Shown piece after piece: positions 15,601 through 58,362 of a DNA stretch of 64,000 bases. Position 1 is the first letter of the stretch, and every line of letters begins with the position of its first letter. The DNA is taken from the NCBI RefSeq assembly GCF_012489685.1, contig NC_080042.1, forward strand, positions 11,360,150 through 11,424,149, written 5' to 3'. The translations under genes and the position numbers were made by a program. The notes beneath the pieces were generated by a model, which saw only the letters and a list, made by a program, of their open reading frames with translations, was not told the DNA's origin and did no database searches. This stretch comes from Lotus japonicus (taxonomy: Eukaryota; Streptophyta; Magnoliopsida; Fabales; Fabaceae).

Positions 15601-18600
15601 GGAGAGATTTCCCATTGTACATAACTGGCATTTATTGGCAGCAATTCCCGTTTTTTCTCCAGGTATACTCTGTAAAAAGAGCACTAACTTATATATGCAA
15701 TCTCATAAATTGATAAACTCAATTATTAAAGTGTCACTACAGTTGCTCACTGATATCATTGAATTTAAGAATGAAAAATGCTGGTAGTAAGGATCAAACT
15801 CTTGATTACATGTCAAGTCCCAACTACCAACAATCTCAAAAGCATACGGGTTTAGTTAGAGGCACACAAACAGTTTTGTTTCTTAAAGATGTCTCTCATA
15901 CAAGAGCCTTCTGGAATTGAAGCATGGACAATGTACTTGTCGACTTAACATATGTTGTTGAAATTTAAACTCATTATGTGGCAAGTATTGAACTCTTGGT
16001 CATGCAATCCAAAAGGAACTAATATCATGTGAAGGACCAACTTCACTAAGAGCTAACTTGACAGAGTATCAAGTGCCTCCCCCTTATAATAGTTTCAACT
16101 TTTGATCTTAACAGTGGCCAATACAAAGTATAAAATAAAAGCAAAAATGGACCCTGCCTCAGTACTGCAACCCAGTTGGTTTTCTTAAATATAATTAGCA
16201 TCACATAATCATACTATTACGAAACCTTAATGATTAAAAGGAAGAGAAGAAATCACAAAAAAACAAAAAGGTTCAACAAAAATTGAAGAAATTTTTGTAT
16301 AAACAATCCCTATATAGCTGGAACACACATGTACACAAATTATCATAAAAAGAAATGAATATAACATCAAGGACTGAAGAAACATAAATCAAAATAAAGG
16401 TGAGAATTATATAAATCTTGAAATGCCACAGTAAAATAGAGAGATAAGATAGCAAAACTTATTTAGATAATTGCACATCAGTATAAAAGATTCTGTTCCA
16501 AAATGCTTAAATCTTGTTCAGATTCTTTTCCGTAATCATTTTGTGCAGTTTCCATATCAAATTGAAAAAAGAAAATCACAAAATAAAGATTTCTATGCTA
16601 ATGATATAAGAGTTTTATCCACACAGATAACGGTGATGTAAACACCGGAAGATAATGTACTGACCTGAACAGCCTGCTTCCTCAGACTTTGAATGTGTTG
16701 TATGATTTGATCTTTTGTGAAAATCTCAGTTAAGGAAACAATTTTAACTGTTGTACTTGAGAACTTGGATTCCATCTTTTCATCAGCTTTCTTCTCACTG
16801 ACTTTCTTTTCAGCATTTACCCCAGCAGAGTTGAATCCAGTTCTTCCATTTATCTCCTCTACATCTGCAGTAACAGGACCTTCGCTAAGAGTATCCATAC
16901 TGGAACTCGATGTAACTTCAGTTTCGCTTGGGCTACTGCTGTCTGAGGAATCATGGTTCATGGAGTCAGAGTCAGAATCATCTGATACAAGAACTACTTC
17001 TAAGCCTTTGGAGTGAATTGTTTCACTCTCAAAAGCCTGCCCAAATCTATCATTAATCACATTATTCTCTATGCACTCTGCAACTCCAGTTCTGCCAATT
17101 ATGTCCTCTGCATCTTCAGCAGTTGGATCTTTGCAGAGAGTATGCGTTCTAGAATCTGATCTAATAACAGTTTCCTCTATGTTGCTCAAGTCTACATTGT
17201 CATGGCCGCTGGGGCCTGACTCCTCTGACTCTGACATATGGTCCGCTTCTAAGCCATTCGAGTTCATCGTTTGATTCTTGAAAGTCTGCCCAACCAAATC
17301 ATAAACCACATTGTTCATGATCTCATCTCTCATAGAATCATGCATAGGACTTTTAAATTGTTCCAAAATGAAATCTGAAACTGCAGCTTTTCCATCTATG
17401 TCCTCTATATCTGCAGCAATAGGATTATTTCTGAGAGTACTCATGCTAGAATTTAATCTAGTGGCAGCTTCCAAGTTATTGCTGTCTACTGTATCATCTC
17501 TTCTGAGGTTTGAATCCTCTGATGTTTGATCATCCTCTGATGTAAGATCAATCACATTTTCCTTTATGGCCAAAGATTGAAACATCTTGGGAGTCCATTG
17601 TTCAGAACAGCTTGAATTATTAATACCAGAAGCAGATTCCAGTTTAAGTCTTTTGGTAGGTCGTAGCATAACATCGGAATTACCAGAAGGGGCATCATTG
17701 ATTGGCTTTGTAGGAAGTCCGGAAAACATAAGTGTTCTCTTCCCTGACATTTGACAGCAATTTTGACTCTGATCTACAAAGGACGAACTAGTCTGGAAAG
17801 TAGTAGATTTCCCTTTGAGGTCATATTGAGGGATCATCAAATTTGAAGATTCAGATTGGAGGGATTTCCCCATTGCAGTATGTAAAGCCAAAGGCTCATT
17901 TTTCTGGACAGTCCCCAAACAATTTCCATATTTGTTAAGATTCATCTCCACTGCCAAAGTAGTCAATCAAATGGGTAAACAATACACTACTGAAAATAAA
18001 AAATAATTCTACAAAATGAGAGAACAAAACCAAAAACCAAAAACAAAAACATGGCTGCAGAAGCAAAACCAATAGGTGCACTTATACATATTGAAAGATA
18101 AGAAGAAATCCCAAGAGTTGTTGAAGCTTACAATTATTTGCATGTTGCTGAGGAAAACTGAAATCAATTGATTTGGAGCTAGCTGCCAGATTTCTTCCAC
18201 CACCAGCAGTAAGGATTTGAGAAAGCTCATCCATACCGGTATATGAAGTACTGGTTGAGCCCGCATGAGGTGGAAAAACTGGCTCATGTACAATAGAACT
18301 GTAAAGTATTCCTCCATTTGGAAAGCCATTTCCATTGTCTGTAGCCACTGCACAATAATTAGTAGCATTAATGATAGGATTAGCCATATATGTCTGTGAG
18401 AAAGCCATATTTATTTTTTACAGTACATTTGAAAAAGAAAAAAACAATTCTAACAAAAACGGAGCACAAAACCAAAAACAAAAGCATGGCTTCATAAAGA
18501 AATCAAAAGTTGACTTGTACAATTAGAAACATAGAAGAAATCACAAACGTTAATGAAGCGTACAATTATTTGCATGTTGCTGAGGAAAGTTGAAACCAAT

Positions 18601-19871
18601 TGATTTGGTGCTATCTGCCAGATTTTTCCCACCACCAGTAGCAAATATTTGCGAAAGCTCATCCATACCAGTATATGTATTACTGACAAAACCCTCATGA
18701 GCTGGAAAAACTGGCTCGTGTACAATAGAATGGCTTTGTATTCCATTTGGAAAGCCATGTGTATTGTCTGCGGCCACTGCATAATAATCAGTCACATTAA
18801 GGATAAGATTAGCCAAATATGTCTGTGATAAACCAAATTTATTTTCTACAATACATTTGGAATAAAAATAATTCTGACAAAAAGGGTGCACGTACAAAAC
18901 CAAAAAATTGCACTTATACATATTGAAAAATATGAGTAAATCACAAAAGGAGTTGAACCATACAATTATTTGCATGTTGCTGAGGAAATCTGAAACCAAT
19001 AGAATTGGTGCTAGCTGCCAGATTTCTTCCACCACCAGAATAAAAGACTTGCGAGAGCTCATCCATACCAGTAATTGTAGTAATGCTTGCTAACCCCTCA
19101 TGAGGTGGATAAACTGGCTCATGTCCAATAGAATGGTTAAATGGTCCATTCGGAAAGTCATGCATATTATTTGCAGCCACAGCACTATGATTAGTGGCAT
19201 TAACTATAGGGTTGTACACTGCCTTGTATGACATGGAGCTTCGAAGTTGTTGTTGGCTTTCACTTCTCCTCTTATTGAGTTCAGTTCGCACCCGTTGTAA
19301 CAAGGTCTGTTCATTTAAAAACTCCTCCTGCCAAATATGTAGAAAGAAAAATCAATAATAGACAGAGCTTGCACTTGATCCTCTTACTGTCTTATTACTC
19401 AGAAAATAAAAATCTCTCATGTTCAGGCACCATCCAAGATACAAACCTGTGAAGCAGCATGCTTAAATAGCTCGTTTTCAACAGTATTTACAATAGCAGA
19501 TATTGACTCCTGTGCTTGCCCATGGTGAAAATTGGAGCTTAAAATTTCAGATCTGAGGTAAAAAGTTTAGTTAGTATCAACCCCGTGACAATATTTTGTT
19601 AAGTAAATGCCAAATGTATTAATTTCAGTATATTTATATATATGAGATAAAAGTTCTACAAGTTTCAGTTTAAGATCACTTACATTTTTCTTCTAATGTG
19701 AAAACGGTAATGAGTAATGTTATGATGGTGGCGCCAATATGCGGAGTATCCTACTTCACTTCTTAAATATTGTTGGTGTAAATTAAAACCCTGATGTTGA
19801 GGAAGGTTTGAGAAAGAATATCTTTGTGTTTGTATGAAGTTACTCTTGATATTAGAACTCTTGGAATGCAT
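10557..19871 (-). CDS. HAC: HAC-type (CBP/p300 family) histone acetyltransferase
   Basis: Spliced minus-strand gene for a nuclear transcriptional co-activator that acetylates histones. Coding exons by splice-site reading: 19871-19684, 19552-19447, 19327-18964 (or copies 18822-18564 / 18393-18132), 17950-16665, 15669-15385, 15303-15022, 14678-14550, 14444-14244, 14090-13948, 13740-13437, 12629-12490, 11802-11745, 11664-11275, 10967-10741, 10644-10557. All junctions are GT-AG and in frame, giving 4191 nt and 1396 aa. Domain order: KIX-like N-terminus, acidic low-complexity part, PHD finger, KAT11 catalytic domain, ZZ, ZZ, TAZ2. The N-terminal TAZ1 finger and long Gln-rich region of Arabidopsis HAC1 are absent, so this is a shortened or divergent paralogue. 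An in-frame TGA just upstream in the same exon fixes ATG 19871 as the first in-frame start. Exon edges are my reading and lack transcript support. Confidence 0.9.
11036..11186 (-). mobile_element. Au-type SINE in a HAC intron
   Basis: On the minus strand a box-B-like GGTTACTAGTTCAAATCCCG is followed by AAACAGTCTCTTG, ATAAGGCTG, CAATAGACTACATG, GCGGGAGCTTTCGTGCACCG and GGCTGTCTTTTTTC. This is the known order of the plant tRNA-derived Au SINE, with its short T-rich 3' end. It lies in the intron between the second ZZ exon and the TAZ exon and appears diverged and inert. Confidence 0.85.
13437..15669 (-). CDS. HAC: HAC exons encoding PHD finger and KAT11 acetyltransferase core
   Basis: Exons 15669-15385 and 15303-15022 encode zinc-binding Cys pairs and the PHD-like [17 protein letters not shown] ... 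YTCPIC. Exons 14678-14550, 14444-14244, 14090-13948 and 13740-13437 encode the KAT11 domain. It includes [50 protein letters not shown] and LPYFDGDYW. The Trp of IWACP and the Tyr of WYLSML (the W codon is split across an intron) line up with p300 residues W1436 and Y1467, so the acetyl-transfer site looks intact. Family knowledge: acetyl-CoA-dependent acetylation of histone H3/H4 lysines. Confidence 0.9.
16665..17950 (-). CDS. HAC: HAC large acidic exon with three internal repeats
   Basis: A 1286-bp exon (phase 1 in, phase 0 out). The first part has short basic and Ser-rich stretches (e.g. [13 protein letters not shown]). The middle is acidic and Ser/Asn/Glu-rich. Three degenerate repeats of roughly 85-95 residues can be traced by the recurring pattern TL-x3-P-x-A-x-D-x-EDI-x-G (around [39 protein letters not shown]). 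The end, [19 protein letters not shown], matches the conserved helix that precedes the PHD finger in plant HACs. No TAZ1 cysteines or histidines are present. The acidic part probably acts as a disordered activation or scaffold region (inference). Confidence 0.8.
18132..18393 (-). CDS. HAC: HAC duplicated exon, copy 3 (alternative or cryptic)
   Basis: 262 bp between acceptor TTTCTCACAG and donor ATT|GTAAGC, the strongest donor of the three copies. It is fully open and encodes [16 protein letters not shown] ... [19 protein letters not shown] ... FPQQHANN. Its phases (0 in, 1 out) equal those of copies 1 and 2. The introns between copies are also similar, so the duplicated unit is about 400-432 bp. 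Confidence 0.6.
18564..18822 (-). CDS. HAC: HAC duplicated exon, copy 2 (alternative or cryptic)
   Basis: 259 bp between acceptor TTATCACAG and donor ATT|GTACGC, open throughout, encoding [16 protein letters not shown] ... [19 protein letters not shown] ... FPQQHANN. It is a diverged duplicate of the 3' part of exon 4 together with its downstream intron. It begins in phase 0 and ends in phase 1. It can therefore join exon 3 and exon 7 in frame, but cannot be read in frame right after exon 4. It may be an alternative exon or a skipped duplicate. Confidence 0.6.
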
Positions 19872-20151: not shown

Positions 20152-21275
20152 GGCACGCCGTATTAGGCATGATAGTATAAGCTTATACAATACATTATGA
20201 GTTTATCCATTGTTTGGTGATGACATTGTATTGTATAAGCTTATCCATCAAAGTCCCCTTATACGTTAAAATGACGTATTATTTAATCCATCATGTGAGT
20301 GATGGATAAGACATGATAAGGTTGCGACGTATAAGTCACCATCACCACCACCCTCTATTGCTGCCAACTTACACCACCATTGGCACCACCACCACCACCA
20401 CCACCATCCGATCACCGCCGCCGCCGCCACCACCGCCCTACCGTCACCACTGGTGTTGCCACCACCACCACCACCGCCGCCCTACCGCCACCACCACCAT
20501 AATCGCCGCCACCACAACCCTATCGCCACCACCACCATAATCGCCGCCACCACCGACACCACAACCACCACCCTATCGCCACCACCACCACCACCACCAT
20601 TGCCTCCACCCTCCACCGTCACCACCACCCTACTAAGCCGCCACCGCCTTACTACCACCACCACACTCTATCGTCGCCAACACCACAACCACCATCGCTG
20701 CCACCACCGCCACCACCGATGTTGCCGCCACCGCCACCGCCCTACCGCCACCACAACCACCACCCTATCGCCACCACCACCATAATTGTCGCCACCACTC
20801 TATTGCCACCACCGACACCACAACCACCACCCTATCGCCGCCACCACCACCACCATTGCCTCCACCCTCCACTGTAGCCGCCACCGCCTTACCACCACCA
20901 CCACCACCCTATCATCACCACCACCACAACCACCATCGCTGCCACCACCACCACCAACCTATCTCCACTGTCACCACCACCGCCACCAACACCAACCTAC
21001 CACCATTGCCACCACCACCACCAACCTACCACTACTTCCATCACCACCGCCACCACCGTTATAATCACCTCCATATTTGATTTTTATTTTATATCATTAT
21101 TCAATACTTCATTAAACATAAAATTGCATTAATTTAAACGATATGGTAAATTATACAGTGTATGTCCAAACGCTGTATAGTATAAGAAAATTATCAGGGC
21201 TTATACTATCAGGCCTAATACTATCAGGCCTTATACTATCAGGCCTTATACTATACGTCACACCAAACGGGCCCT
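20152..21275. mobile_element. MITE-like element loaded with CCA triplets, in HAC intron 1
   Basis: The left end AGGGCTCGTTTGGCACGCCG and the right end (reverse complement AGGGCCCGTTTGGTGTGACG) are near-matching terminal inverted repeats, followed inside by further mirrored copies of GATAGTATAAGC. Subterminal GGCCTTATACTATCA repeats occur at the right end. The centre is about 720 bp of CCACCA/CCGCCA-type repeat. The TIR type resembles hAT MITEs, but a clean 8-bp target duplication is not visible. It has no coding capacity of its own. Confidence 0.65.
20336..21060. repeat. long imperfect (CCA)n tract
   Basis: About 720 bp of CCACCACC with CCGCC, CTATCGCC and ACAACC interruptions, in several sub-blocks that are themselves repeated (CCCTATCGCCACCACC and CACAACCACCACCC recur). 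One strand is almost purine-free. Open frames across it are composition artefacts. Confidence 0.9.
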
Positions 21276-27100: not shown

Positions 27101-28571
27101 ACTATTTTCAAAGTAATATGGAAGTACCGAGTAACAACATAAATTAATCTTGCTAATAGGAGTTAATTTATCAAGAAAAAAAATCTTTTAGTACTCGTGG
27201 AAGCTCTAGTTTTACCTTCTAATTTATGTTCCTTTTAATATATTTCCTTCTAAAACTATTTTAATTCTTTTGAAAATAGTAGTGAATAATTATAACAATT
27301 CTTTACGATATATATAATTTTTATCCTAAAAACACTTTATGATAAAATAAATTTGTGGAATCTCTCTTCAATACTTTTCTCTAATTTCTATTTCCAATTT
27401 TAGGTTTTATTGTTACATTTGAATATTAACTATAAAATTATATATGATTCGAATAGAACAATTTTCAAAGTAATGTACGTGAAAGTACCAAGCAACAATA
27501 TAAAGCAGCATCTGTGAAACTTGGAAGTACCAACCACCTCTAGCATGAGAAAAAAGTAAGAGCCTTAACCTTGTCCCGAAAAGCCATATAATTTTAATTA
27601 ACTTTTCAATACAAACTAAGAAAATAAAATCTTGATAATCAAATCTTATGTCTAATATGCATATTTTGTCTTTAGTGTCAGAAATCCTCAAGCTTCGATG
27701 TGCTTAACCCAAGACTTTCCTTCCATATTCTGTAAAAAAATGTAGTGAGAAATTATAGCATAGTCAATCGCTCAAAATGTAAAAAATTTAAAAACTACAG
27801 GGGTTCAAATATGTTCTCATCAGAAGCTAATTCCAATAATTAATGATCATAATCAGGAAAGAAACCCACCATAATCAAGTTAGAAACCCACCACTACATC
27901 ACAATGCTTAGTTATGTCACGTTACTGACAGAGTATGTCTCATTCCTTTTTAGATTCTTATAAGCTTGTTGATGCATTCTTACCTTGCACTTGAATATTC
28001 CTCATAAACTTCTTTTGTGAAATGAAAGTTAGGAAGTTGGAATTAAACCACCATATAAAAGTTCAAAGTTTTCAAGATGCTCCACAATGAATGGGTTTAA
28101 CAAGTTAATTCTTCCTAATTTCATCTGAACCATCTTAAAATTCTTAATAGTTCCTGAACGAAAACCATAAGGAGCTATTGTTAGTGAGAAAATGGGCAAG
28201 AATAAAATTGAACAAAGAGATAATGTCAATCTTCTTTTAGAGTGCATCAATGGTGAAGAGCTGTAGAAATTTAGAAGAGTAACTATGTTGGATAATGAAT
28301 GAGTGAGCAAACTAATGAAATACAATACATACACGCTCACAAACCTGTTCTTGAAGTTCTGATTCTGCATTATTTAGCACCCTACATCATCATTAGATAA
28401 AGGAGAACAACATAATAGCTTTCAGAGTTTCAACAACCATACTACAAACACAATACAAACACGCTCACAAACGATTAAAAGGCGCATGACAAAATTTAAG
28501 AACTCACACAGGAGAGAAGCAGAGTTGTGAAAATCATGTGGCTGAACCAATCCTCTTCAATTCCTGTCAAG

Positions 28572-28625
28572 AAAAATAAAAAAAATGTCAAGAAAGGAAT
28601 AAAATACTGATGAACCCTAATTTCC
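28572..28625. repeat. 54-bp perfect direct repeat, copy 1
   Basis: Identical to 30096-30149, with 1.47 kb between the copies. It contains ATGTCAAGAAAGGAATAAAA and TGATGAACCCTAATTTCC. Sequence beyond each copy differs at once on both sides. Confidence 0.9.
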
Positions 28626-30095
28626 TTTCCTCATTAAAGCACACTTTTTTTTGGCACTGGAAGGATTTGCATCCAAGGTTCGGTGGATGCAGCCTATGAT
28701 TCTTACTAACAATAACATTGGCGTCGGATTATGTTGCTCCCATCGGCGACGAAACAGTTCTCGCTGGCGAAGTCTTCAACGTTCCACGACGTGCAAACAC
28801 GAAAAGGGTTTCCGTGAAATCATGTGCGGCTGCTTCCATTGTTTGTGTTGAGTTCTTCCAGGTGAGTGTCTTCTCTTTTTTCTTTGCTGTATTCTCATTA
28901 AGATAGTGTTGAAGATGAGAGCCCTTGATTTTCCTAGCTTACTGCTATTTTGTGATGCATCAGAAATTGGGCTGAATCCCTTTTGTAATTTGATATTTTA
29001 ATTTGTTTCACTTCCTGCTCTTTTACTTTGATAGATTGGAGGTTGACTTGATTTGTAAATTATGAAATGGTATTTTGGCCTATTTTGTACAGGTCGTGAA
29101 TGAGACATTGTACAAAACAATCACTATAACATGAAGGCCTTGGTTAATTGAATGGTTGATGATGATTATTTTCCAGATGTGATGCTAAGTGTTTTGACTA
29201 AGGTTTGCATATATTGTTGCTTTCTGTCTATGCTGCTACTCTAAAAATTGAGATTCAATACTACTTTGAAAATTGCTTTCTGTCTTCCCCGAGGTTTCGG
29301 TATGAAACCCAGATGATATTAAAGGAGCTCTATAGGTTTGTAGAATTTGTGATTCATTGCCCTTTACCGTCTTGCATCTTACATATTAACTACTATCTCT
29401 TCTGTCTGTATTAACATTTGAGCAATGTCCACGAACATTGATGAAAGGTCTAATCTTAATTTTTTTATATGATGTTTTTTATGATGCATTTTTCTTTGAT
29501 TAGCTTTGCAGAGAGTTTCAGTGGAGAGTGACTCGGTGGTCACTGATGTTCTTGCTTGCGATGGTGTTGAGTGTGGCTTCGGCCGCATGATCGTCGAGCT
29601 TTGAGGAGTCGGACCAAATCTGTTCGGATCTTAATCTGCTCTGCAAATCTGTTTGGACCTCTATGCCTTTTCATGTATTCCAGAAGAAAGATTATGCATT
29701 CCCCGGGGTTCAACTTTATGCATTGCACTGGGTACAACTTTTCTGTCTCTCTAGCTAATCTAATTGCTCCTCTTAATAATGATTGATTGGGTTAGTTATT
29801 CCTTGCTTTTTGTATACTTTTAAGCTCATTAGCAAAGTTTGAAGCGATATTTTTTATAATTGAACCAGTTGAATTTTTATCAGATAAATATTGAGTGTGT
29901 GCAATCTCTTATTTGAGCCAGTGATTAACCTGCAGAAATTAAAGACTATTATTTTAGGCATAGCCATACAAATTCAGCCATTTCAGTTTAGGCAACGACT
30001 TTAAGTTGTTAATCGTTGATTTGTTATCCCTTTTGCTTAAATTGTTTACTCAGATCCATTTTGACATGTTTTGATTCATGTGGAATGGCTGAATA

Positions 30096-30149
30096 AAAAA
30101 TAAAAAAAATGTCAAGAAAGGAATAAAATACTGATGAACCCTAATTTCC
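30096..30149. repeat. 54-bp perfect direct repeat, copy 2
   Basis: Second copy of the repeat at 28572-28625. It lies just before the patch where coding-like frames are absent and the MULE foldback begins (30594). Confidence 0.9.
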
Positions 30150-30593
30150 ATGAAGTGTGAAGGCTCAACTCGATTTTGGTTCTCTTCAAGAACCAAGCAT
30201 GAAATGGGCCGAGATATAGAAAAAGAAGAAGGTTGCACACAAAAGGAGAAAATGTATAGCAGGGCAAACAATTATAAGAGAAAAAAAACAATGCAGAGAA
30301 GAAAAACTGAAAAAGTGAAGCAATAGAGAAGAACACATACGTTTTTATAATTTCAAATGATTCAGTCATCTGATTTTAAAGCATTCAAGTGATTGGATGA
30401 TAGTAGAGATTGTTATAAATTAAGTAGGTAGAAAAATGAAGTTTGAAATTTTAAATTAATAATAATTGCAGGTTTATGAAAGGTATTGAGGAAGCTATTG
30501 ACTATTGAGTGAGAAAGTGATAAGAAACAACTTTCAGTCTTGGTAACCACCCAAATAGTTTAAATGTGCATTTGAATTAGAGATAACTATAAA

Positions 30594-31261
30594 GGCTTAA
30601 ATACTCTTTTGGTCCTTGAAATTTTAAAGGGAATCAAATATGATCCCTGTAAAATTTTCGCATCAAATTAGGTCCCTAAAATTGTTTTTTTAATCTAATT
30701 AAGTCCTTTTGCTCAATTTTGACTAGTCAACGATCCAGTGGAAAGCCTAGTCAGCTAAGGATGGCCACATGCACTTTTTTCACATCAATTTTAGTCCCTT
30801 AAAAAATATTTTAATCAATTTTAGTCCTTGTTCTTCCACCTTCCTCTTCCACCTTCTTCCTCTTTCTCCATAACTCAAATCCTTAAACCTAGAAATTCAA
30901 AACCCTAAAAAAATTTATATGTTTATCACATTCACCTTGGTCTTCTTCCTTTTGAATTTATATGTGATTTGAGTTATGGAGGAAGAGGAAGAAGGTGAAA
31001 GTGGAAGAAGGTGAAAGTGGAAGAACAGAAACTAAAATTGATTAAAATACTTTTCAAGGGACTAAAATTGATGTGAAAAAATCCACGTGGCCGTCCTTAA
31101 CTGACTAGGCTTTCCACTTGACTGTTGACCGGTCAAAATTGAGCAAAAGGAGTTAATTAGATTAAAAAAACAATTTTAGGGACCCAATTTGATGCGAAAA
31201 TTTTACAAGGACCAGATTTGATTCTCTTTACAATTTCAAGGACGAAAAGGTTATTTAAGCC
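30594..31261. mobile_element. MULE-type foldback element (668 bp) with 10-bp TSD
   Basis: Begins GGCTTAAATACTCTTTTGGT and ends with the inverse (AAGGTTATTTAAGCC). The two halves are long imperfect inverted repeats of about 290 bp, with phrases such as TTTTAGTCCC, GACTAGTCAACG and TTCTTCCACC mirrored. It is flanked by identical 10-bp direct repeats TAACTATAAA (30584-30593 and 31262-31271). A 9-11 bp duplication plus long TIRs indicates a Mutator-like non-autonomous element. The inside has no ORF. Confidence 0.85.
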
Positions 31262-31739
31262 TAACTATAAATTGTAACACCCCGACTTCCAGGTGTCACT
31301 TTAGTAACCAAAAATAAACTTTACGCGAAAAACAGGTAATTTTTTTTTTTGTTTCTTTCCTTTAAATCAAAGCGATAAAGAAGTAGAGACAACACCCAAC
31401 AACTAAACTAACCGATATACAAATATATACATTTGTACAGCCTCGGCTGCACTCCATGTCACGCGAAGCCGCAGTGACTCCAAAGCAGAACGCCCGCAGG
31501 CAAATATACAAACCAGAACTGTGAGAAAAGTATCAAAATACAGTTATCCAAGAGAAAGTCGGCACTCAAAAATGGCCTGAAAGGAAGACCCCTATACTCC
31601 GACAGACTCTCTGTGATCCTCCTCAAAAGAACCACACAAAAAGCCACACATCGGAACCTACCCTGTCCCAAAAAGAAACTGACGATCAGAGCTCTACACA
31701 AAAAATGTCGCCTGCCCAAACCTAACCTCCCAGCTCAGC

Positions 31740-32441
31740 TCACCAATCCTCCTCCTCCTCATCGCTGCTCGGCGAGTAGCTCTCCCCACTGCTCTCGGAG
31801 TCAGAGTCGAAATCCACCGTAATCATCTCGGTGTCCAAATCCATAACCTCCCTCCTCACTGTCCTGCGCACCGCCCTAGTCGAGCCGGTCTCCACATCCA
31901 CCTCTCCTGTGAGAACATCCTCCTCCTCCACCCTCATCAAGGGGTCCACACGGTAGCCGTGCGGTGAAGAGAAAGATAAGAGACGTGAGACAGATGGGAC
32001 AACAGACTCCCTCCTCGGCTGTACGAGCCTAGAGGACGACGCCACGTCGGTAGAAGCGATGGCAGTAGCCGGAGGTGGCACAACAGATATAGCAGCAGCA
32101 GCAGGCTCGATCTCCTCTGGGTCCTCCTCAACAGAAGGTGAAGTCGGAGGTGGTGCAGGTGGTGCATGTCCAGTGCCTGGTCCACAATGAACTGAGGGCG
32201 GCAAGTCAAAACTCAGCTCCATACGCCGTAGCACTCCGCTCGTCAGGCGTCCTCGCTCATCCGTCCGGTCCTCCATGACCCTTCCCCTATACGTCGCCCG
32301 GTGACCAGCCACATCGATCACCCAAGCGGTGGGGGCATCCCTATCCAGCAACTCATATCTGATCCCCCCCGAGGGAGAGACCGTCGAGAACCAGTCGGCC
32401 ATCGACATCTGGCAGCAGGCCGACCGCCCAAAGACAAACAT
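31740..32441 (-). CDS. 233-aa ORF of unknown function inside the solo LTR
   Basis: An open frame from ATG 32441; an internal start MSMADWFSTVSPSGG about 12 codons later is equally likely. Residues about 14-75 look globular (IRYELLDRDAPTAWVIDVAG, YRGRVMEDRTDERG). Residues 80-130 are Pro/Ala-rich. Residues 140-200 are Arg/Glu/Val-rich. The tail is strongly acidic (DFDSDSESSGESYSPSSDEEEEDW). Codon use is much GC-richer than the surroundings. I do not recognise the family. It is not gag, protease, RT or integrase. Its location within an LTR means it would be present twice in a full element. Confidence 0.55.
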   Translation of the reverse strand: MFVFGRSACCQMSMADWFSTVSPSGGIRYELLDRDAPTAWVIDVAGHRATYRGRVMEDRTDERGRLTSGVLRRMELSFDLPPSVHCGPGTGHAPPAPPPTSPSVEEDPEEIEPAAAAISVVPPPATAIASTDVASSSRLVQPRRESVVPSVSRLLSFSSPHGYRVDPLMRVEEEDVLTGEVDVETGSTRAVRRTVRREVMDLDTEMITVDFDSDSESSGESYSPSSDEEEEDW

Positions 32442-32645
32442 ACAAACAAAGCCAAGGCGCTAGGGCCAACTCACAGCAATAAGTACATATACACACAACA
32501 TGTGACAGGATATATATATAAGTTGTTATACAAGCATATAAGTAATCCTAGCATGTTATGGCTCTAACATTACTTCAATAAACAAACAGCACACAGTCTC
32601 AGTCAGCATGAATGTATGCGTGAAATGCACAATATGAATCCGGAT

Positions 32646-32889
32646 TTGTGACGCGTTCCCGTTCGCCACAAGTGAAGCATTCCCGTTCTTCACTATGGAT
32701 GGACCATTCCCGTTATCCATCCTGGATGAAATCCATCCTGGATGAACCATTCCCGTTATTCATCCTTGGTGAACCATTCCCGTTATTCACCATATGATGA
32801 ACCATTCCCGTTATTCATCATTTATGCAAGGTGAACCATTCCCGTTATTCACCATGATATGCACAGGTGAACCATTCCCGTTATTCACC
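32646..32889 (-). repeat. array of eight hairpins with a constant loop and covarying stems
   Basis: Units at 32646, 32671, 32697, 32740, 32767, 32794, 32830 and 32866. Six of the eight units (3-8) have the loop CCATTCCCGTTA (plus strand); units 1 and 2 have close variants. The flanking arms differ from unit to unit yet stay complementary: AGTGAAG/CTTCACT, GGATGGA/TCCATCC, GGATGAA/TTCATCC, TGGTGAA/TTCACCA, ATGATGAA/TTCATCAT, GGTGAA/TTCACC. The array lies in the predicted transcribed leader of the LTR, in sense on the minus strand (loop TAACGGGAATGG). Confidence 0.9.
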
Positions 32890-32974
32890 CGATTGAATGC
32901 AACGTGGTTAGCCAAACAACGAATCGCCCTTACCACGAAAGTGTCTAGCGCACAACCCAATCTCAAACAACCCA

Positions 32975-33125
32975 ATGAGTTAGTGTCGGTCAATACAACA
33001 CAACTCGGAGTAAGTGTCGGTCAATACAACACAACTCCAACAAGAAAACACAAGGGTCTAGTGTCGGTCAATACAACACAGCCCAAACAACAAGAGCACT
33101 AGGTGTCGGTCAATACAACACGGCT
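32975..33125 (-). repeat. second tandem array in the solo LTR leader
   Basis: Four units share GTGTCGGTCAATACAACAC (starts near 32983, 33014, 33061, 33103) with variable spacers of 12-28 bp. Each unit has GTGT/ACAC arms around a constant centre, so short hairpins are again possible. Confidence 0.85.
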
Positions 33126-34577
33126 CCACAACACTCCCCAAGAGTACTAGAGTACTCGATGACTTCAATCATCACCATAGCTCACCTTAGTGGCTTTCCC
33201 CAATTCCGATAACTCTCCAAACCCACAACAAAGGTCGACTTTTCCCCGTCTTTCGTAAATATTTTCCCCTTTAGTTCTCCTATAACTGTTCATTTAGTAA
33301 AAACGTTTCGAATTGAATTAGTCAGGTTATGAGTTTATTTCTCAAAGTCTAAGTCTCCCAAAGTCTCTAGTTTACAAAATTCTATTCATTCTAGGTTTTC
33401 CGAAAACCAACCACCCAAAAGAAGTTTCCCGGGGAAAGTCTAAGTAAACCAATGAATCCCAACAAATGGCTAAGTCCCAAACCCCTCATTTGGACTTGCC
33501 TAGGGTTGCTCATCCAACCCGAAACATCAAAGATCACCAGATCAATGAATCTCCACTCCGAAGTCGCGTCAAAACGCACAATCCAACAAAGCACAACATC
33601 ACAACATCAGTTCATCAACACAATCAACATCAAAGTAAAGCATAAGTCGAATTGATCGACGCCTATCATGCATTCATAGCTAATATATAGTAAGTTGCCC
33701 TAACCTCGAGCTGTTCCAGCTTCGAAATCAAGGTTGTCCTCAAACAGTTGCTCTGAATATTCCAAAGTTCCTTCAACTGAACCTCGGAGAAAAACAAAGC
33801 AGAATTCAAACAAAATCGATTAGTTCGATCGCAAAACAATACATAAACGATAGACAAAGCATCAAAGCTTCAGAGTACGACAAACGGGTACGAAAGGACA
33901 AGTTTTCGAAAACGAAAAACTCCCCCCCCTTAGGAAAACCCACGGCCAAAAGGAGAAAAGGGCTTCGGCTCTTTTTCTTCGATCAAATCAGTTTACAAGG
34001 TAGTTTTAGGGTAAAACTAAGGCAAAGAAACTGTCAGAACAATTTTCGGACAATCGGGTCGAAATACGACTACGCAGGGGCATTTTGGTCCAAAATAAAG
34101 GCTCAAAACTTCAAAGTTATCAGTTCTGAAAACAGATTTGACAGCAACGATCCTCATGACGTCCGTGACAACAAATCCTAAAGGCACGAAGTCAGATTAT
34201 AGCTTTACGACAATAAAGTTTCGAAATGTGAGACAAAAAGAGTTTTGAGTCAATTTTTCAGATCCTGGACAACTGAATCGCAATCAGAGTTTACTGACAG
34301 AGGTTTTAGACTCAGGGGAACATAAGGAACATAACCCAAGCGAGAAATCAGAGAAATCGGACAATTTTAGAAAAAGCTCAAAACTTAGAGCACAGAAACG
34401 GCTTCAGAAACGCAACAGAAACAACAATCAGAGGTAGGAATCGTGTTAGTTACCTTGATACCTAGAAGTAGGGACGAACTGCACGAAGATTGGTCAAGAT
34501 TTCACGAAAATCTCTCCTCTCCCTCTCTCTCTACAATTCTCGGCCAAAATGGTGAAAATGAAGAGGATATTTGCTTT

Positions 34578-34600
34578 TTCGCCTATTTATAGGCGGGCGA
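34578..34600 (-). promoter_or_regulatory. TATA box of the solo LTR
   Basis: Minus strand CCGCCTATAAATAGGCG is a textbook TATA box inside a palindrome, about 690 bp into the LTR. It implies a U3 of about 0.7 kb and an R/U5 of about 3.3 kb. Transcription would run towards lower coordinates, through the hairpin array and the ORF. Confidence 0.7.
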
Positions 34601-36779
34601 AATCGCGGGAAAATGAAAATTTCGCGATTCCGATTTTTGCAGCACGATCACCGTGGAATTCTAAGAGAGATTCTAGCGTCAGAATTCCAGAACTCAAAAC
34701 AAATATCTAGGATTTGGGAAAAACGATATCGAAAAACTCAAAAGCGGTGTCGGTTAATCTGTCCCGAAAAACTACTTTTTGCTGTGATCGCCGAACGACA
34801 AAACTTCCTTCTGAAGAAAGATTGGAAACGTCGAAACAAGTCTGGCAACGCGGACGGAATCTTCGTTAGAAGTCCCGAATAGAAAAAGTCTTCATCCATT
34901 GCTCGAAAATAGGGTTTCGAAGCAAAGAAATTAGCGTCGGCGGACATCCGAAAAGTGAAACCTATCGTGCGTACAGTCCAGAGTTCCGAAATGAAACGCT
35001 GGTCGATGGAAAAATAAAGAGAATCTTTAAATTTTCCGAGAGTTCGAAATCTCACTCAAAACGTTGCTTTAAGAGCGAAATAGCCTATTCTGGACACGCT
35101 CGCCCTAAGGTAGGTGTGCAGACGACTCGCACTAACTCCGAAAACAACTACGCAACATTCCTCAAGCAATTCCTGAACTTTCTTCTTCATTAATCTTCCT
35201 CAAATATCAAACTCCTGTCACGCTTACACTGATTCTACGCGTGAGTCGGAAACTAGCTTGTTCTGAAAATTCAGGTCTTACATAAATTGTTAATATGCAT
35301 TGTGAGTTACTATAAGAACACGTGATATAATAAAAGACAACAATTAAAGATACCAATGAAAGCAATTAGCAATTTTAATACGTTCAAAAAAAATTAGCAA
35401 TTTTAATTAGAGATTTTATGATTGGTCAAAAATATATCCATAGAGTAAGTATTAAAGAGCACTAACCATGTTATCTCTAATTGGCTATTTATGTGGTTGA
35501 AATAATCATAGTTAAACAGATTTTTTAAATTTTATAAGCTGCAAAAAATGTGATTGGTTACTGAGTTTTTAGTGGGAAGAAAGTTTGAATTGATAATTAA
35601 TGTTATATATTTTATAGATTAAAAAAAATCAAAAATAAAATTAATTAGATGGCTTATTACACACTTACCCTTCAATAAAATTGCAAATATCAAATGAACC
35701 ATTCCAAAGTTTTCAAAAGTGGAATTAAAATTTTCTTTTTGAATTATTTTATTCTTGGAAAAATGCTTGAAACCTATCTTAGTAATTGCCAAGTGTCAAA
35801 ACTAACCATCTTTTAGGTTCTCTTTTATATACTATTTAGATTTAGATGAGTCTTGATAAAATCTTCCTAGGAAAAACTCAAATGAGATAAAAACCTAAGG
35901 TAAGAAAAAGAGTACCACCACACTCTCTATGTCCTTTGAAATAAAACATCAATCCTCAAAGAATACAATCATAAGCCAGAAAATAAATAACCATTACACA
36001 ATAGCTTGACCTCCACTATTTGCCTCCTTGTATCCACGAATAACACAACCAGTAGCAAGCCTCAATGCTTCTTAATACTTTATATCCCAAAATAACATCT
36101 TCGACCAAGCATTTACTAACTGAAAAAGAAGAGATACATAGAGTCAATATAAGATTTCTGTACTAACTTGCACAATTATTTGAATGCATTGAACAAAATA
36201 TTATTAATGTTGTAAGAGAAAAATGTAGCAAAGAAAACCTACTATCTCTTGCTTCATACTTCTGCTTTGTTTAAGCATCAACCCCAGTACAATTAAACTT
36301 CAGAACATCCTTGATCTTTGTGTGTTCTTAGATCTACATATTGTGGCCAAACCCTTTCAAAAATTTGTTCCTACAGATAAGCACAGAAAGCTCTTGAAAT
36401 AAGAAAAGTTAATTAGAAAGAGGTCTAATAGATTAGAGGAAGGGTCAAATGGGAGTAATATTGAAAATAACATGCAAAAAAAATAAAACAAAGCTCAAAC
36501 CAAAATTCATAGACAATACTTCTGTTAGCAAATAAGTTTTACTCCCTCAAAACATCTTTTTTCCAAACTAAGGGGATGTATTATGGAAATGGACCTCAAC
36601 ATTCATTTGAAGTTTAATTTAACAATTATAAGCACCAATATTACATCCATTAAGCAATGTAACATGAAAATACTTGGACAATAGTGAATAAATCAATAAG
36701 TAGGAGAAGGAAACAATCTTCCTGCAAGCACAACATTGCCATACTCATTTGGTCGGTCCTGCAGACGAAATACAATAAA

Positions 36780-41815: not shown

Positions 41816-43751
41816 TGATGCGGCGGAAGTCGTACTAGGATTGCAAGCGCAAATTCTAAAAAGAAGGTTTCTGGAATCCACCAGAAAGGGAGTTAGCCAG
41901 CGCTAAAATCCTAGAAAATACTAGAAAATACACTGGAATCCACCAGAGAAGAAGAGAAAACTCTTGAATTTTATTATCAATCAAAAACTGAATAGGCTAT
42001 TGCCTTACAAGTGCTTAAATAGGAAAATAAAATATCCTAATAGAAAAATAAATAATATCCTAAAAGATCCTAATTGAAAATAAAAGATTCTAATTGTAAA
42101 TAAATAAGTTTCTAACCAAAAATAAATATGATCCTAAAAGATTCTAATTGAAACAGAATAGATTCGGAATAGATCCTAAATATATTTAAAAATACTAAAA
42201 ATAATAAATTTCTAATTAATCTGCTCCTGCATCAGGCTCCTCTTCTTGTGAAGAACTCGACCCCGAGTTCTAACGTAACAAAAAAAAACAAAGGAGGCAT
42301 CTGTTCGGAACTCATGAACGATATTAAGAATGTCAGGGTCAAATACCCAAATTTGTGTAGAACTATCTGATGCCCGCATGAATGCGTCATAACCAAGTGC
42401 CTCTGATGTCTTTACATTCTCCTCTTCTTCCAAAGAACTTGACCACAAGTTCTCTTCTAAATAAAAGGCTTCAATATGCAAACCAACCAAACGAACAACA
42501 TCATTACTACAACTCCGAACTCTTTTTTCATCATCTCCTTCAACAAATATCTCATGAGCACCATCACTATCTTTAATCAATCCTAACCTCTCCAGTTTCT
42601 CCAAAATAACCTTGGGGGCTTTTGAATTATAGGGGATAGTGCTTTGTACTCCTGTAGGAAGCGGAGTTGAAGATTTGAATGTAAGAAACTCTGAGGACTT
42701 CATGTGGCCTACGTTTTCATCTTTTGTAACGTCAACTTCCCCTGGTTTCTGCGCAGATGGAACCAAATCACCCACCAACGCTTTTGCCTCATCTTCCATG
42801 CCAACAATAGAGGATGGCGCAAATGAAATTTGAGAATCTGATTCCCAAGAAGTTGTGTGCACTGCAGGTGGACATGAATTTGATGTGAATTTTGGTAGGG
42901 GTTGTGGCAAGGAAATTGGATCTGCAGTCAGTGATATGTTGGGATAAGGATTGATAAGGTTGGATGTAGCAGGTTGGGGGTGTGGAGTTTCGGTGGTTTT
43001 AGAGGTTGGGTACTGAACTTGGTAATAAGGTTGAGATACCGATGGTGAAGGTAAGGATTGGGAAGGTAAGTATATAGCGGAACGATTGTTGTTGTTGTCG
43101 TCGCGCGGAAACCTATGTGGTTTCCCTCTCCTGTCTTGCCGGTTCCGATTCACGTTGTAGGTGTTGTTGATCTGCGCTGTTATAGCCGCCGTGAACGTCG
43201 CCATCTGTTGCGTCATAGCATTGAGGGCCGCGGTAAAAGCCGCGGTAACATCCTTCAGGTCTGCTTTGGTTGCTGTTTGATCTTCCATGATTGATCAAGC
43301 TACGAAAAGAGACAGGAGAAACCTGCTCTGATACCACTTGATGCGGCGGAAGTCGTACTAGGATTGCAAGCGCAAATCCTAAAAAGAAGGTTTCTTGAAT
43401 CCACCAGAAAGGGAGTTAGCCACCGCTAAAACCCTAGAAAATACTAGAAAATACACTGGAATCCACCAGAGAAGAAGAGAAAAATCTTGAATTTTATTAT
43501 CAATCAAAAACTGAATAGGCTATTGCCTTACAAGTGCTTAAATAGGAAAAGAAAATATCCTAATAGAAAAATAAATAATATCCTAAAAGATCCTAATTGA
43601 AAATAAAAGATCCTAATTGCAAATAAATAAGTTCCTAACCAAAAATAAATATGATCCTAAAAGATTCAAATTGAAACAATTCGGAATAGATCCTAAATAT
43701 ATTTAAAAATACTAAAAATAATAAATTCCTAATTAATCTGCTCCTGCATCA
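41816..43751 (-). mobile_element. complete non-autonomous LTR retrotransposon with one gag-like ORF (TR-GAG-like)
   Basis: Two LTRs, 41816-42234 and 43339-43751, differ by about a dozen substitutions and one 6-bp gap, so insertion is fairly recent. The whole is flanked by the perfect 5-bp duplication ATAAA (41811-41815 and 43752-43756). On the minus strand the first LTR (43751-43339) ends GCATCA and is followed by AG and the initiator-Met primer site TGGTATCAGAGC. Just before the second LTR is a purine-rich AAGAAGAGGAGCC. Internal DNA is only about 1.1 kb with a single ORF. No protease, RT or integrase, so it must borrow enzymes from another element. Confidence 0.92.
42212..43288 (-). CDS. 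gag-like protein of the TR-GAG-like element, 358 aa
   Basis: An open frame filling the element; the last few codons run into the second LTR. Start MEDQTATKADLKDVTAAF gives an Ala/Thr/Gln-rich helix (residues 1-45), then a basic Arg/Asn patch (RNRQDRRGKPHRFPRDDNNN) and a Pro/Ser/Thr-rich linker (70-150). The C-terminal half is mixed and acidic, ending RTRGRVLHKKRS. The amphipathic N-terminus plus basic patch fit a reduced gag, but I see no zinc knuckle and no certain Retrotrans_gag motif. The identification rests mainly on position. Intact frame. Confidence 0.7.
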   Translation of the reverse strand: MEDQTATKADLKDVTAAFTAALNAMTQQMATFTAAITAQINNTYNVNRNRQDRRGKPHRFPRDDNNNNRSAIYLPSQSLPSPSVSQPYYQVQYPTSKTTETPHPQPATSNLINPYPNISLTADPISLPQPLPKFTSNSCPPAVHTTSWESDSQISFAPSSIVGMEDEAKALVGDLVPSAQKPGEVDVTKDENVGHMKSSEFLTFKSSTPLPTGVQSTIPYNSKAPKVILEKLERLGLIKDSDGAHEIFVEGDDEKRVRSCSNDVVRLVGLHIEAFYLEENLWSSSLEEEENVKTSEALGYDAFMRASDSSTQIWVFDPDILNIVHEFRTDASFVFFCYVRTRGRVLHKKRSLMQEQIN

Positions 43752-44090: not shown

Positions 44091-44663
44091 TGATAAGAAC
44101 CTTGGGAAAACCACACCACAAAAGCTAGCTGTTGTAGTTGGAGAGCCCAAGGCCTTATAAACCCTACATTAGAATCTCATACTTCCAATGTGGGACTCTA
44201 GTCCCATACCTTGCAATGGGGTCCTAACATCCCACCACGCTCCGCAGCCCCGACGCCCACGCGGGCTGGCTGTGCACTAGCCCCACGACTAGTCCCGGGC
44301 AAACACTGCAATGTCAGCGTCACCACCCGCGCCGCTCGTTTGCAGCTCAGAGACATGGTAGAAGGCTCTGATACCATTGATAGGAACCTTGGGAGAACCA
44401 CACCACAAAAGCTAGCTGTTGTAGTTGGAGAGCCTAAGGCCTTATAAACCCCACATTAGAATCTCATACTTCCAATGTGGTACTCAAGTCCCACACCTTG
44501 CAATGGGGTCCTAACATCCCACTACGCTCCGCAGCCCCGGCGCCCACGCGGGCTGGCTGTGCACTAGCCCCTTGACTAGTCCCGGGCGAACACTGCAATG
44601 CCGACGTCACCACCCGCGCTGCTCGTTTACAGCTCAGAGACATGGTGGAAGGGTCTGATACCA
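44091..44663 (-). mobile_element. tandem TRIM elements (LTR-internal-LTR-internal)
   Basis: Two repeats of about 287 bp. Each has a 139-bp LTR (44091-44229, 44378-44516; minus strand TGTTAGGACC ... GGTTCYTATCA), a GC-rich internal part of about 147 bp, and an initiator-Met primer site (TGGTATCAGAGC; in the second copy TGGTATCAGACC) one base from the LTR. A purine tract GTGGTGGGA precedes the LTR start. TRIMs are short non-coding LTR elements and often form such tandem arrays. A third LTR of the family lies at 50839-50945, on the far side of the chromovirus. Confidence 0.85.
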
Positions 44664-44664
44664 A

Positions 44665-45059
44665 TGTTAGGTTCCAGAAACAGAGTAGGAAAATAGAAAC
44701 TGATTATATTAAAATAGCACTGAATCCTCTAGAATGAACCTAGAAGCAGTGTTTGCAGTAGTACAGAGAAAAAGAAATGAACAAGAAATGAACAAGAACA
44801 ATTTTGAGAGTGCTCAATCTCTCCCAAGTCCTAGCCAATTTCTGCCTCCGGAATCCCTCTCTCCATAACTAACATATATATTCCCTAGGATGATTTCCCT
44901 ATGGTCCTCCCTCACTCACATGGGTGCTGCCACCTCATCAGGTGGATATTTTGAAAGGACAATTTATAGAAGGTGCTGTCATCAGGTACAGCTTGCACCT
45001 GTTTGGGCTTTCTGGCATATACCTTGCCAAACCTGGGCCTGGTTAATGGGTCTGTAACA
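44665..45059 (-). repeat. 3' LTR of the Reina-like chromovirus
   Basis: 395 bp, plus strand TGTTAGGTTCCAG ... GGGTCTGTAACA, directly beside the purine tract on one side and, on the other, one base from a TRIM primer-binding site (44652-44663). No partner LTR elsewhere in the window. Confidence 0.8.
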
Positions 45060-57748: not shown

Positions 57749-58117
57749 TTGGATTTATTAATCCAGCGTCACCCTTAGGATTCGATGGGCTTAACATCCC
57801 ACCCCACGACGCTTAACATCGCAGCCCCTTGAGGACTTTGTGCTATAAGGAAATAAAGTTGCGCCCTCACTAACAGCAATTGCTTTTGGCGTAGTGGTAA
57901 GCGCTTGATCCAATAAGTGGTATCAGAGCAAGGTCATGGGTTCGAATTTTGGATTTATTAATCTAGCGTCACCCTTAGGATTCGATGGGCTTAACATCCC
58001 ACCCCATGGCGCTTAACATCGCAACCCCTTGAGGACTCTGTGCTATAAGGAAATAAAGTTGCGCCCTCACTAACAGCAATTTCTTTTGGCGTAGTGGTAA
58101 GCGCTTGATTCAATAAT
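57749..58117 (+). repeat. tandem tRNA-like repeat (SINE- or TRIM-like), about 200-bp unit
   Basis: Two near-identical copies of TTGGATTTATTAATC ... GGCGTAGTGGTAAGCGCTTG (57752-57932, 57951-58115). Between them sits GTGGTATCAGAGC, GGTCATGGGTTCGAATTT. TGGCGTAGTGG and GGTTCGAAT look like pol III A and B boxes about 55 bp apart, which would make it a SINE read across the junction. TGGTATCAGAGC is also an initiator-Met primer site, which would make it two LTRs with a minute internal region. I cannot decide between these. Confidence 0.6.
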
Positions 58118-58362
58118 AGGTTGATTAGAACTGAATTAGTCAAGCAAGAACCCAAGGCATTCTCACCATTGATTATCACACACTTATCTTTGTTAGCTTT
58201 CTAATTAAGTATCATAACAATTAATCAACCTTTAAAACTGAATTTTACTCGCTTTCCTACCGTGAACTCGAGGCTTAAACTGAATTGCCACACCAATTCC
58301 CTGTGGTTCGATAAATTTAAAACCGGGTGAATTCCGTACACTTGCGGATTGACCAACATTGG
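58118..58362 (+). mobile_element. LTR 3' end fragment, probably Ty3/gypsy
   Basis: Contains CAAGCAAGAACCCAAGG, CCCTGTGGTTCGATAAATT and CCGTACACTTGCGGATTGAC, phrases typical of the 3' part of large plant gypsy LTRs. Assignment by recall only. It is the target of the Sirevirus solo LTR that follows. Confidence 0.45.

Follow-up and report, generated by a model that had tools for sequence, protein, structure and literature searches.

Tandem hairpins with a near-constant loop in a long terminal repeat of a Lotus japonicus Ty3/gypsy retrotransposon: a possible packaging signal of the genomic RNA

We analyzed a stretch of 64,000 nt of the Lotus japonicus genome (contig NC_080042.1, positions 11,360,150 to 11,424,149; hereafter the window), which harbors an array of eight consecutive hairpins in a long terminal repeat (LTR) of a Ty3/gypsy retrotransposon. 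Covariation of the stems across many copies indicates that the array is very probably under selection for its structure in the sense RNA. Regarding its role, the array may serve as an RNA recognition element that is repeated in the leader of the unspliced RNA, namely as a packaging signal similar to psi to which Gag would bind; we assign this reading a probability of about 0.5. All results are based on sequence from one genome, a 553.7-Mb assembly of 65 contigs in which the window is part of contig 2.

The original prediction had placed eight units at 32646–32889, and we found them at exactly these coordinates and with the arm sequences quoted there. The 12-mer CCATTCCCGTTA, described as the shared loop, is exact in six units, and units 1 and 2 differ from it by three and two mismatches, respectively. 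Whereas the constancy of the loop was borne out, its length of 12 nt had to be corrected: in sense RNA the loop is 10 nt long because the outer loop letters pair as U.G (six units) or G–C (two units). Each of these class A units forms in sense RNA a stem of 7–9 bp with the purine-rich loop AACGGGAAUG (AACGGGAACG in unit 1), and the single A.C mismatch of unit 1 on the plus strand corresponds to a G.U pair on the minus strand. By comparing eight stem pairs in the eight units we observed standard pairs in 62 of 64 cells on the minus strand and two-sided changes at six of the eight pairs. Among all 40,320 assignments of 3' to 5' arms none was better than the true one, which is one of four equally good best assignments, and 0 of 500 column shuffles reached the observed pairing. 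Only 1 of 10 loop columns is variable compared to 12 of 16 stem columns (Fisher p 0.0036). Applied to the window with default filters, the covariance model R1 recovered seven of the eight units (unit 2 was missed) and gave one extra match at 19128, which is at chance level.

The array had originally been read on the plus strand. This orientation did not hold, as the TATA box CCTATAAATAGG and the LTR-encoded open reading frame (ORF) are both located on the minus strand. It is correct that the array lies downstream of a TATA box, namely the one at 34582–34593 (minus), but the box named at first (32512, plus strand) is on the wrong strand. We rejected the plus-strand reading since TATA box, ORF, the order of primer binding site (PBS) and Gag in a related copy, and the pairing itself all favour the minus strand: in the window units 96.9% of the cells are paired on the minus strand, compared to 84.4% on the plus strand.

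Searching the whole genome, we counted 8,663 loops with U.G flanks (20 for a reversed-pattern control) and 2,328 loops with G–C flanks (control 86), while loops with mismatched G..G flanks occur at chance level (40, control 34). From these counts it follows that a 5' G accompanies a 3' C and hardly ever the G of the commoner unit. The exact 12-mer was found 108 times in 22 array-bearing copies; scaled from the 8,663 loops, we estimate about 1,800 arrays genome-wide. For alignment, 20 stretches of contig 1 were chosen from the listed loop matches, and two further stretches contained an array (L067) and a single stray loop (L068). The 20 stretches and the window hold 6–8 units per copy. When 22 copies were aligned (the stray loop was dropped), the mean pairwise difference was 0.0105 for loops, 0.0545 for stems, 0.172 for spacers and 0.101 and 0.134 for the flanks, where the loop value is biased towards conserved loops as the copies had been found by the exact loop.

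An enlarged set of 63 stretches adds 20 stretches from the first 100 listed G–C loops and 20 stretches that were hand-picked, blind to the loop, among 150 ORF matches. By a loop-only rule we found arrays in 47 of the 63 stretches, with 61 distinct arm pairs; no pairing filter was applied, and loops with no second loop within 60 nt were dropped. At pairs 1–7 of the 61 distinct units, 406 of 427 stem cells are paired, compared to a mean of 336.5 and a maximum of 359 in 5,000 shuffles, and two-sided changes occur at every one of these pairs. At pairs 2–7 we counted 24 G.U pairs against 7 A.C mismatches (binomial p 0.003 for the ratio of 24:7) and 13 mismatches of other kinds; however, as the distinct units are related to each other, neither the shuffles nor the 24:7 ratio are independent tests. 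If double-stranded DNA alone mattered, G.U and A.C should be equally frequent, and the ratio therefore suggests that selection acts on the sense RNA. The compensatory stem changes of the original prediction recur in the copies examined, whose arms are mostly complementary, and the selection on structure proposed there agrees with a covariation beyond that of column shuffles. A plain minisatellite, in which the arms drift independently and loop and stem diverge alike, was rejected because the copies do not show this pattern.

A further group of four hairpins (class B, 32983–33121) lies just 5' of the class A array in the RNA. Their outer stems differ between units yet pair within each unit. In the window, the own flanks give the best total energy among 24 assignments, and for the 49 distinct flanks in the copies the own mean is −11.9, compared to a mean of −10.6 and a best value of −11.0 in 60 shuffles.

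In 16 of the 20 stretches chosen by the ORF, a (G/A)GUGAAG...CUUCAC hairpin is present at the same place, with loops varying around GGA: AACGGGAAUG occurs in six and AACGGGAAAG in four stretches, AACUGGAAAG, UCGGGAAAG and UCAGGAAAG were found once each, and three stretches have a UUGGGACGG or UUGGGACGA loop and beside it a hairpin with another stem (GAAGG/CCUUC) and the same UUGGGACG. Applying a looser rule to the 20 stretches, we observed no AACGGGAAUG-like unit in eight, 1–3 units in 11 and six units in one (L114). The eightfold array looks like an expansion within the subfamily of the window. We also investigated a sister lineage whose ORF (P0006) is 51% identical to that of the window. The AACGGGAAUG loop is absent in 30 of 30 fetched sister stretches of about 3.5 kb, while 22 of these 30 loci show 5–7 hairpins with the loop CGUGAGA and the stems GAGG/CCUC and GAAG/CUUC (spaced 36–37 nt in L035), counted with a loose filter that drops units with more than one mismatch in the first four pairs. 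In all four longer sister stretches the order is TATA box, array, acceptor-like CAG and ORF. The design is therefore common to the lineages and the loop differs between them. As separate observations on sister loci, L046, which has no array by this filter, looks like a nested insertion, L063 also seems to be without an array, and L073 has a rearranged gag region in which four CCHC-like motifs, but no capsid part, can be seen by eye; this element is perhaps non-autonomous.

The array-bearing element reads TGTAAG...TTACA at its ends on the minus strand and is flanked on both sides by a 5-bp direct repeat, TAAAT. No second exact copy of either end was found in the window; one 11-mer of an LTR end with one mismatch at 53969 is at chance level. 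Because of the TG...CA ends, the target site duplication and the missing exact second end, we regard the 4,010-bp element as a solo LTR. At the place of its TATA box, CCTATAAA was found in 16 of 21 copies inspected, and transcription would be expected to start about 30 nt past this box, near 34561 (minus). On contig 1 we found a related element with both LTRs, which share 99.94% identity. Just inside its 5' LTR lies the PBS TGGTATCAGAGC, which we take to be the usual binding site of initiator tRNA-Met (tRNAiMet), followed by Gag with two CCHC knuckle stretches and by protease, and an integrase precedes the 3' LTR. Above the Pfam cut-off we found PF03732, PF00098, PF08284 and PF24626 (Tf2-1-like SH3) in this element; rve matched with 25.8 bits, under its cut-off of 32.6. 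No Pfam chromodomain matched in its pieces, and the C end of the integrase piece appears chromodomain-like by eye. Given the PBS, the Gag with CCHC knuckles, the protease and the integrase of this two-LTR copy, the family is assigned to the Ty3/gypsy retrotransposons. By resemblance it probably belongs to the long-LTR Tekay/Del kind of chromoviruses.

Regarding the LTR-encoded ORF, we found no Pfam match at E up to 1 and no PDB relative by sequence, and five of its seven protein matches are from Lotus japonicus. The structure model is of low confidence (mean predicted local distance difference test score, pLDDT, of 53.6), and the C end of the protein is acidic. A first look for two relatives of the ORF gave 6,618 and 9,899 candidates in the genome, of which 150 each were scored, many with open frames. 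The median ratio of non-synonymous to synonymous substitution rates (dN/dS) is 0.36 in the window family (5 of 23 copies, 205–235 aa kept) and 0.17 in the sister lineage (24 of 30 copies, at least 150 aa kept), where the choice of copies by protein similarity lowers the value. The LTR-encoded protein seems to be under constraint.

The array is bracketed by a candidate splice donor and a candidate splice acceptor, both of them conserved. The donor AGGTAA is present in 18 of the 18 copies that hold the adjacent block (23 were inspected), the putative exon 1 is AUG-free in all 16 copies matching a pattern that required TATA box and donor (again of 23), and CTGCTGCCAG directly precedes the ATG in 20 of 23 copies. 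By contrast with the AUG-free exon 1, the unspliced leader of the window contains 42 AUGs before the ORF, 14 of them inside the array (seven of the eight loops have one), which makes a spliced message for the LTR protein plausible. A coding reading of the array was rejected, as no frame from its AUGs exceeds 39 codons. The ORF start is missing by pattern in 8 of 23 copies. Seven of these retain 6–8 loops (L017, L022, L025, L027, L030, L032 and L034), and the eighth is the stray-loop stretch L068. Therefore the array seems not to serve the LTR ORF alone: of the leader proposed originally, the location in an LTR and in an expected transcribed leader stands, whereas a leader of the LTR ORF only has become less likely. 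By eye, we noticed in the sister element L069 (about 2330–2400) an exon-like block before a strong-looking donor CAG/GTGAGG, between TATA box and array; a block in the window near 33690–33760 (minus) resembles it and is a possible middle exon.

According to the reading that we prefer, each hairpin would expose the same purine-rich loop on a stem that can vary in sequence as long as its arms still pair. The repeats could give one RNA-binding protein many equivalent places to dock; most likely, the zinc knuckles in the nucleocapsid of the element's own Gag would bind there. A second, spliced message would encode the LTR protein, using the donor about 110 nt after the start and the acceptor before the ORF. 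The hairpins would then be retained only in unspliced RNA, where purine-rich loops would suit the nucleocapsid knuckles, and the array would single out this genomic RNA to be packaged or dimerised, which in retroviruses is the task of psi. A related case appears in the accessible text of PMC8096270, according to which Gag of mouse mammary tumor virus (MMTV) requires a single-stranded purine loop beside the major donor in order to distinguish unspliced RNA from spliced RNA.

However, several observations weigh against a packaging signal. The array is located 1.4–1.6 kb before the LTR end and hence upstream of the PBS. Its distance to the PBS is greater than is known for retroviruses. Adjoining hairpins can differ in their loop (UUGGGGAAUG beside AACGGGAAAG in L097, L099 and L103), and 4 of the 20 ORF-chosen stretches have no hairpin by pattern (L096, L098, L101 and L105; L101 shows one unit by the looser rule). 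The number of units is not conserved (eight in the window, often 1–3 in P0003-type copies), and 8 of 30 sister loci have no array by the filter used. Folding energy does not tell the strands apart: in sliding windows with 20 shuffles each, the array window is the minimum of the minus strand (z −3.7), but the plus strand reaches −5.3 at 32953–33192 and −3.4 at 32713–32952, and for unit 2 taken by itself the plus strand gives the slightly more stable fold (−7.0 vs −6.6). The choice of aligned copies by their loop and the relatedness of the units, both mentioned above, count on the same side.

In a wider version, which we put forward only tentatively, the long-LTR Ty3/gypsy lineages of Lotus would each use an array with an own loop (AACGGGAAUG, UUGGGACG or CGUGAGA), swapped between lineages, read by the own Gag or LTR protein and serving as an address label held in an intron. 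If this is true, thousands of related elements would sort their own genomic RNA by a label that lies in the intron of the LTR gene and is kept only in genomic RNA. One genome offers thousands of natural copies of the loop, with covarying stems, a nearly fixed loop sequence and loops that differ between lineages, and thus a compact candidate for testing the specificity of Gag–RNA recognition in plants.

Other explanations have to be weighed against the packaging signal. The array might control export or splicing of the unspliced RNA, with either a host factor or the LTR-encoded protein as its binding partner. Transport elements of simple retroviruses have repeated loops, and repeated identical loops would fit a multimeric or host RNA-binding protein; the position between candidate donor and acceptor and the dN/dS values of the ORF in both lineages agree with such a role as well. 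However, the LTR protein has no Pfam domain, a low-confidence model and an acidic C end, and splicing is putative. We consider this explanation unlikely, if well worth keeping in mind. Translation control, in which hairpins and AUGs would either stop scanning ribosomes or make them shunt to Gag or to the LTR ORF, appears rather doubtful to us. It is favoured by the 42 AUGs of the unspliced leader with 14 in the array, and the leaders of plant pararetroviruses likewise have short upstream ORFs and structure, as far as the available text of PMC5902531 describes them. However, the CGUGAGA loop of the sister lineage and the UUGGGACG loops have no AUG, upstream AUGs require neither covarying stems nor constancy of the whole loop, and arrays are kept in copies without ORF start.

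A functionless minisatellite whose palindromes are maintained through template switching or gene conversion would explain why unit number differs among copies and why a perfect 16-bp duplication is present. Such palindrome-correcting copying, which the original prediction had offered beside selection, should yield Watson–Crick arms and not G.U pairs on one strand, and it should not spare the loop, which differs much less than the sequence around it (0.011 vs 0.10–0.17); this explanation is disfavoured and in our view very unlikely. Similarly improbable, and slightly more so, is an element acting at the DNA level, either a cruciform or transcription-factor sites in the LTR promoter. TAACGG, the start of the sense 12-mer, which we take to be a MYB-like core, occurs in six of the eight window units, and the minus strand has a TATATATA stretch further downstream, near 32512–32523. 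However, in 40 of the 61 distinct units the T of TAACGG becomes G along with its partner, G.U exceeds A.C on one strand, and about 1.7 kb separate the array from the conserved TATA box upstream of it. The least probable explanation is a decoy or sponge, in which the repeats would sequester a protein of the host that binds RNA or acts in silencing. It would account for many identical loops, and bacterial CsrB/RsmZ hairpin arrays titrate CsrA in this way; a resemblance to PrrB_RsmZ is at chance level (15.6 bits, 44 needed) and illustrates the architecture only. Against it, we know of no host partner.

MMTV encodes a protein (sag) in its LTR, as the array-bearing element does. Its hairpin SL4, according to the accessible text of PMC8096270, is comparable as a leader hairpin with exposed purines near the donor of an LTR element. 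In contrast, the Lotus arrays consist of up to eight tandem copies of one loop with covarying stems in a very long plant LTR and are positioned after and not before the candidate donor. Ty1 and Ty3 are LTR retrotransposons as well, and Ty3 also belongs to the Metaviridae and needs tRNAiMet, but for their packaging regions the words hairpin and tandem are absent from the text of PMC4974528 as far as it was available. Like LORE1/LORE2 of Lotus (PMC2832683, accessible part) and the Tekay/Del chromoviruses, our element is of the Ty3/gypsy type with Gag, protease, integrase and a C end that is chromodomain-like by eye. Unlike LORE1a with its 225-bp LTR (same part of PMC2832683), the array-bearing LTRs measure 3.6–4.2 kb and contain an ORF and hairpin arrays. 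A long structured leader with many AUGs is shared with plant pararetroviruses (PMC5902531, available text), from which the Lotus leader differs by its tandem equal loops. The CsrB/RsmZ RNAs are similar in being hairpin arrays with a repeated loop motif and different in being free small RNAs of bacteria.

No Rfam family matched at the gathering threshold in 28000–36500, where all hits were sub-threshold. Two viral contigs matched by an 18-mer (L001 and L002) have one common sequence and no array, and bacterial or archaeal genome matches (L003–L006) turned out to be other repeats. A profile of the LTR ORF confirmed 0 of 101 candidates on viral contigs, and the class B core had no match in viral contigs. 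In a literature text search that covered titles and abstract openings and did not extend to subscription papers, no such hairpin array was described; in the portion of the literature seen, the loop string occurs in one paper, under a title on a baculovirus and an insect.

Table 1. Coordinates of the solo LTR, its hairpins and further features in the window
Feature	Position	Strand	Remark
Solo LTR, Ty3/gypsy	31273..35282	- (sense = minus)	4,010 bp, TG...CA ends, target site duplication
Target site duplication TAAAT, left copy	31268..31272	.	read beside LTR end
Target site duplication TAAAT, right copy	35283..35287	.	read beside LTR end
TATA box CCTATAAATAGG	34582..34593	-	read in LTR
Putative exon 1, about 108 nt	34454..34561	-	no AUG; ends at candidate donor
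Candidate splice donor (A/G)AG/GTAA	GT at 34453-34452	-	about 108 nt past expected start
Class B hairpins, 4 units	33103-33121, 33061-33079, 33014-33032, 32983-33001	-	constant GUGUUG-UAUUGAC-CGACAC
Class A unit 8 (first in RNA)	32864..32889	-	loop AACGGGAAUG
Class A unit 7	32830..32853	-	hairpin
Class A unit 6	32794..32821	-	hairpin
Class A unit 5	32767..32792	-	hairpin
Class A unit 4	32740..32765	-	hairpin
Perfect 16-bp tandem duplication	32715..32746	.	between units 3 and 4; small palindrome without loop
Class A unit 3	32697..32722	-	pair 3 G-C; unit 1 has G.U there, the other six A-U
Class A unit 2	32671..32694	-	closing pair G-C instead of U.G
Class A unit 1 (last in RNA)	32646..32671	-	loop AACGGGAACG, closing pair G-C
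Candidate splice acceptor, last AG of CTGCTGCCAG	32409..32410	-	directly before ORF ATG
LTR-encoded ORF, 222 aa	31740..32408	-	open frame

Next to the solo LTR, we observed a fold-back element with long inverted arms at 30594–31261, with the 10-bp repeat TAACTATAAA on each side (30584–30593 and 31262–31271). The solo LTR is probably later than this element, since its left target repeat overlaps the right TAACTATAAA copy. Elsewhere in the window, a 360-aa open frame (42212–43294, minus) without Pfam match is located between 300-bp direct repeats that are 97% identical and 1.5 kb apart (41816–43751). Other repeat arrays were seen at 5937–6204 (54-bp units), 18101–19144 (about 400-bp spaced), 20384–21072 (CAC-rich), 44091–44671 (287-bp units) and 57749–58121 (200-bp units).
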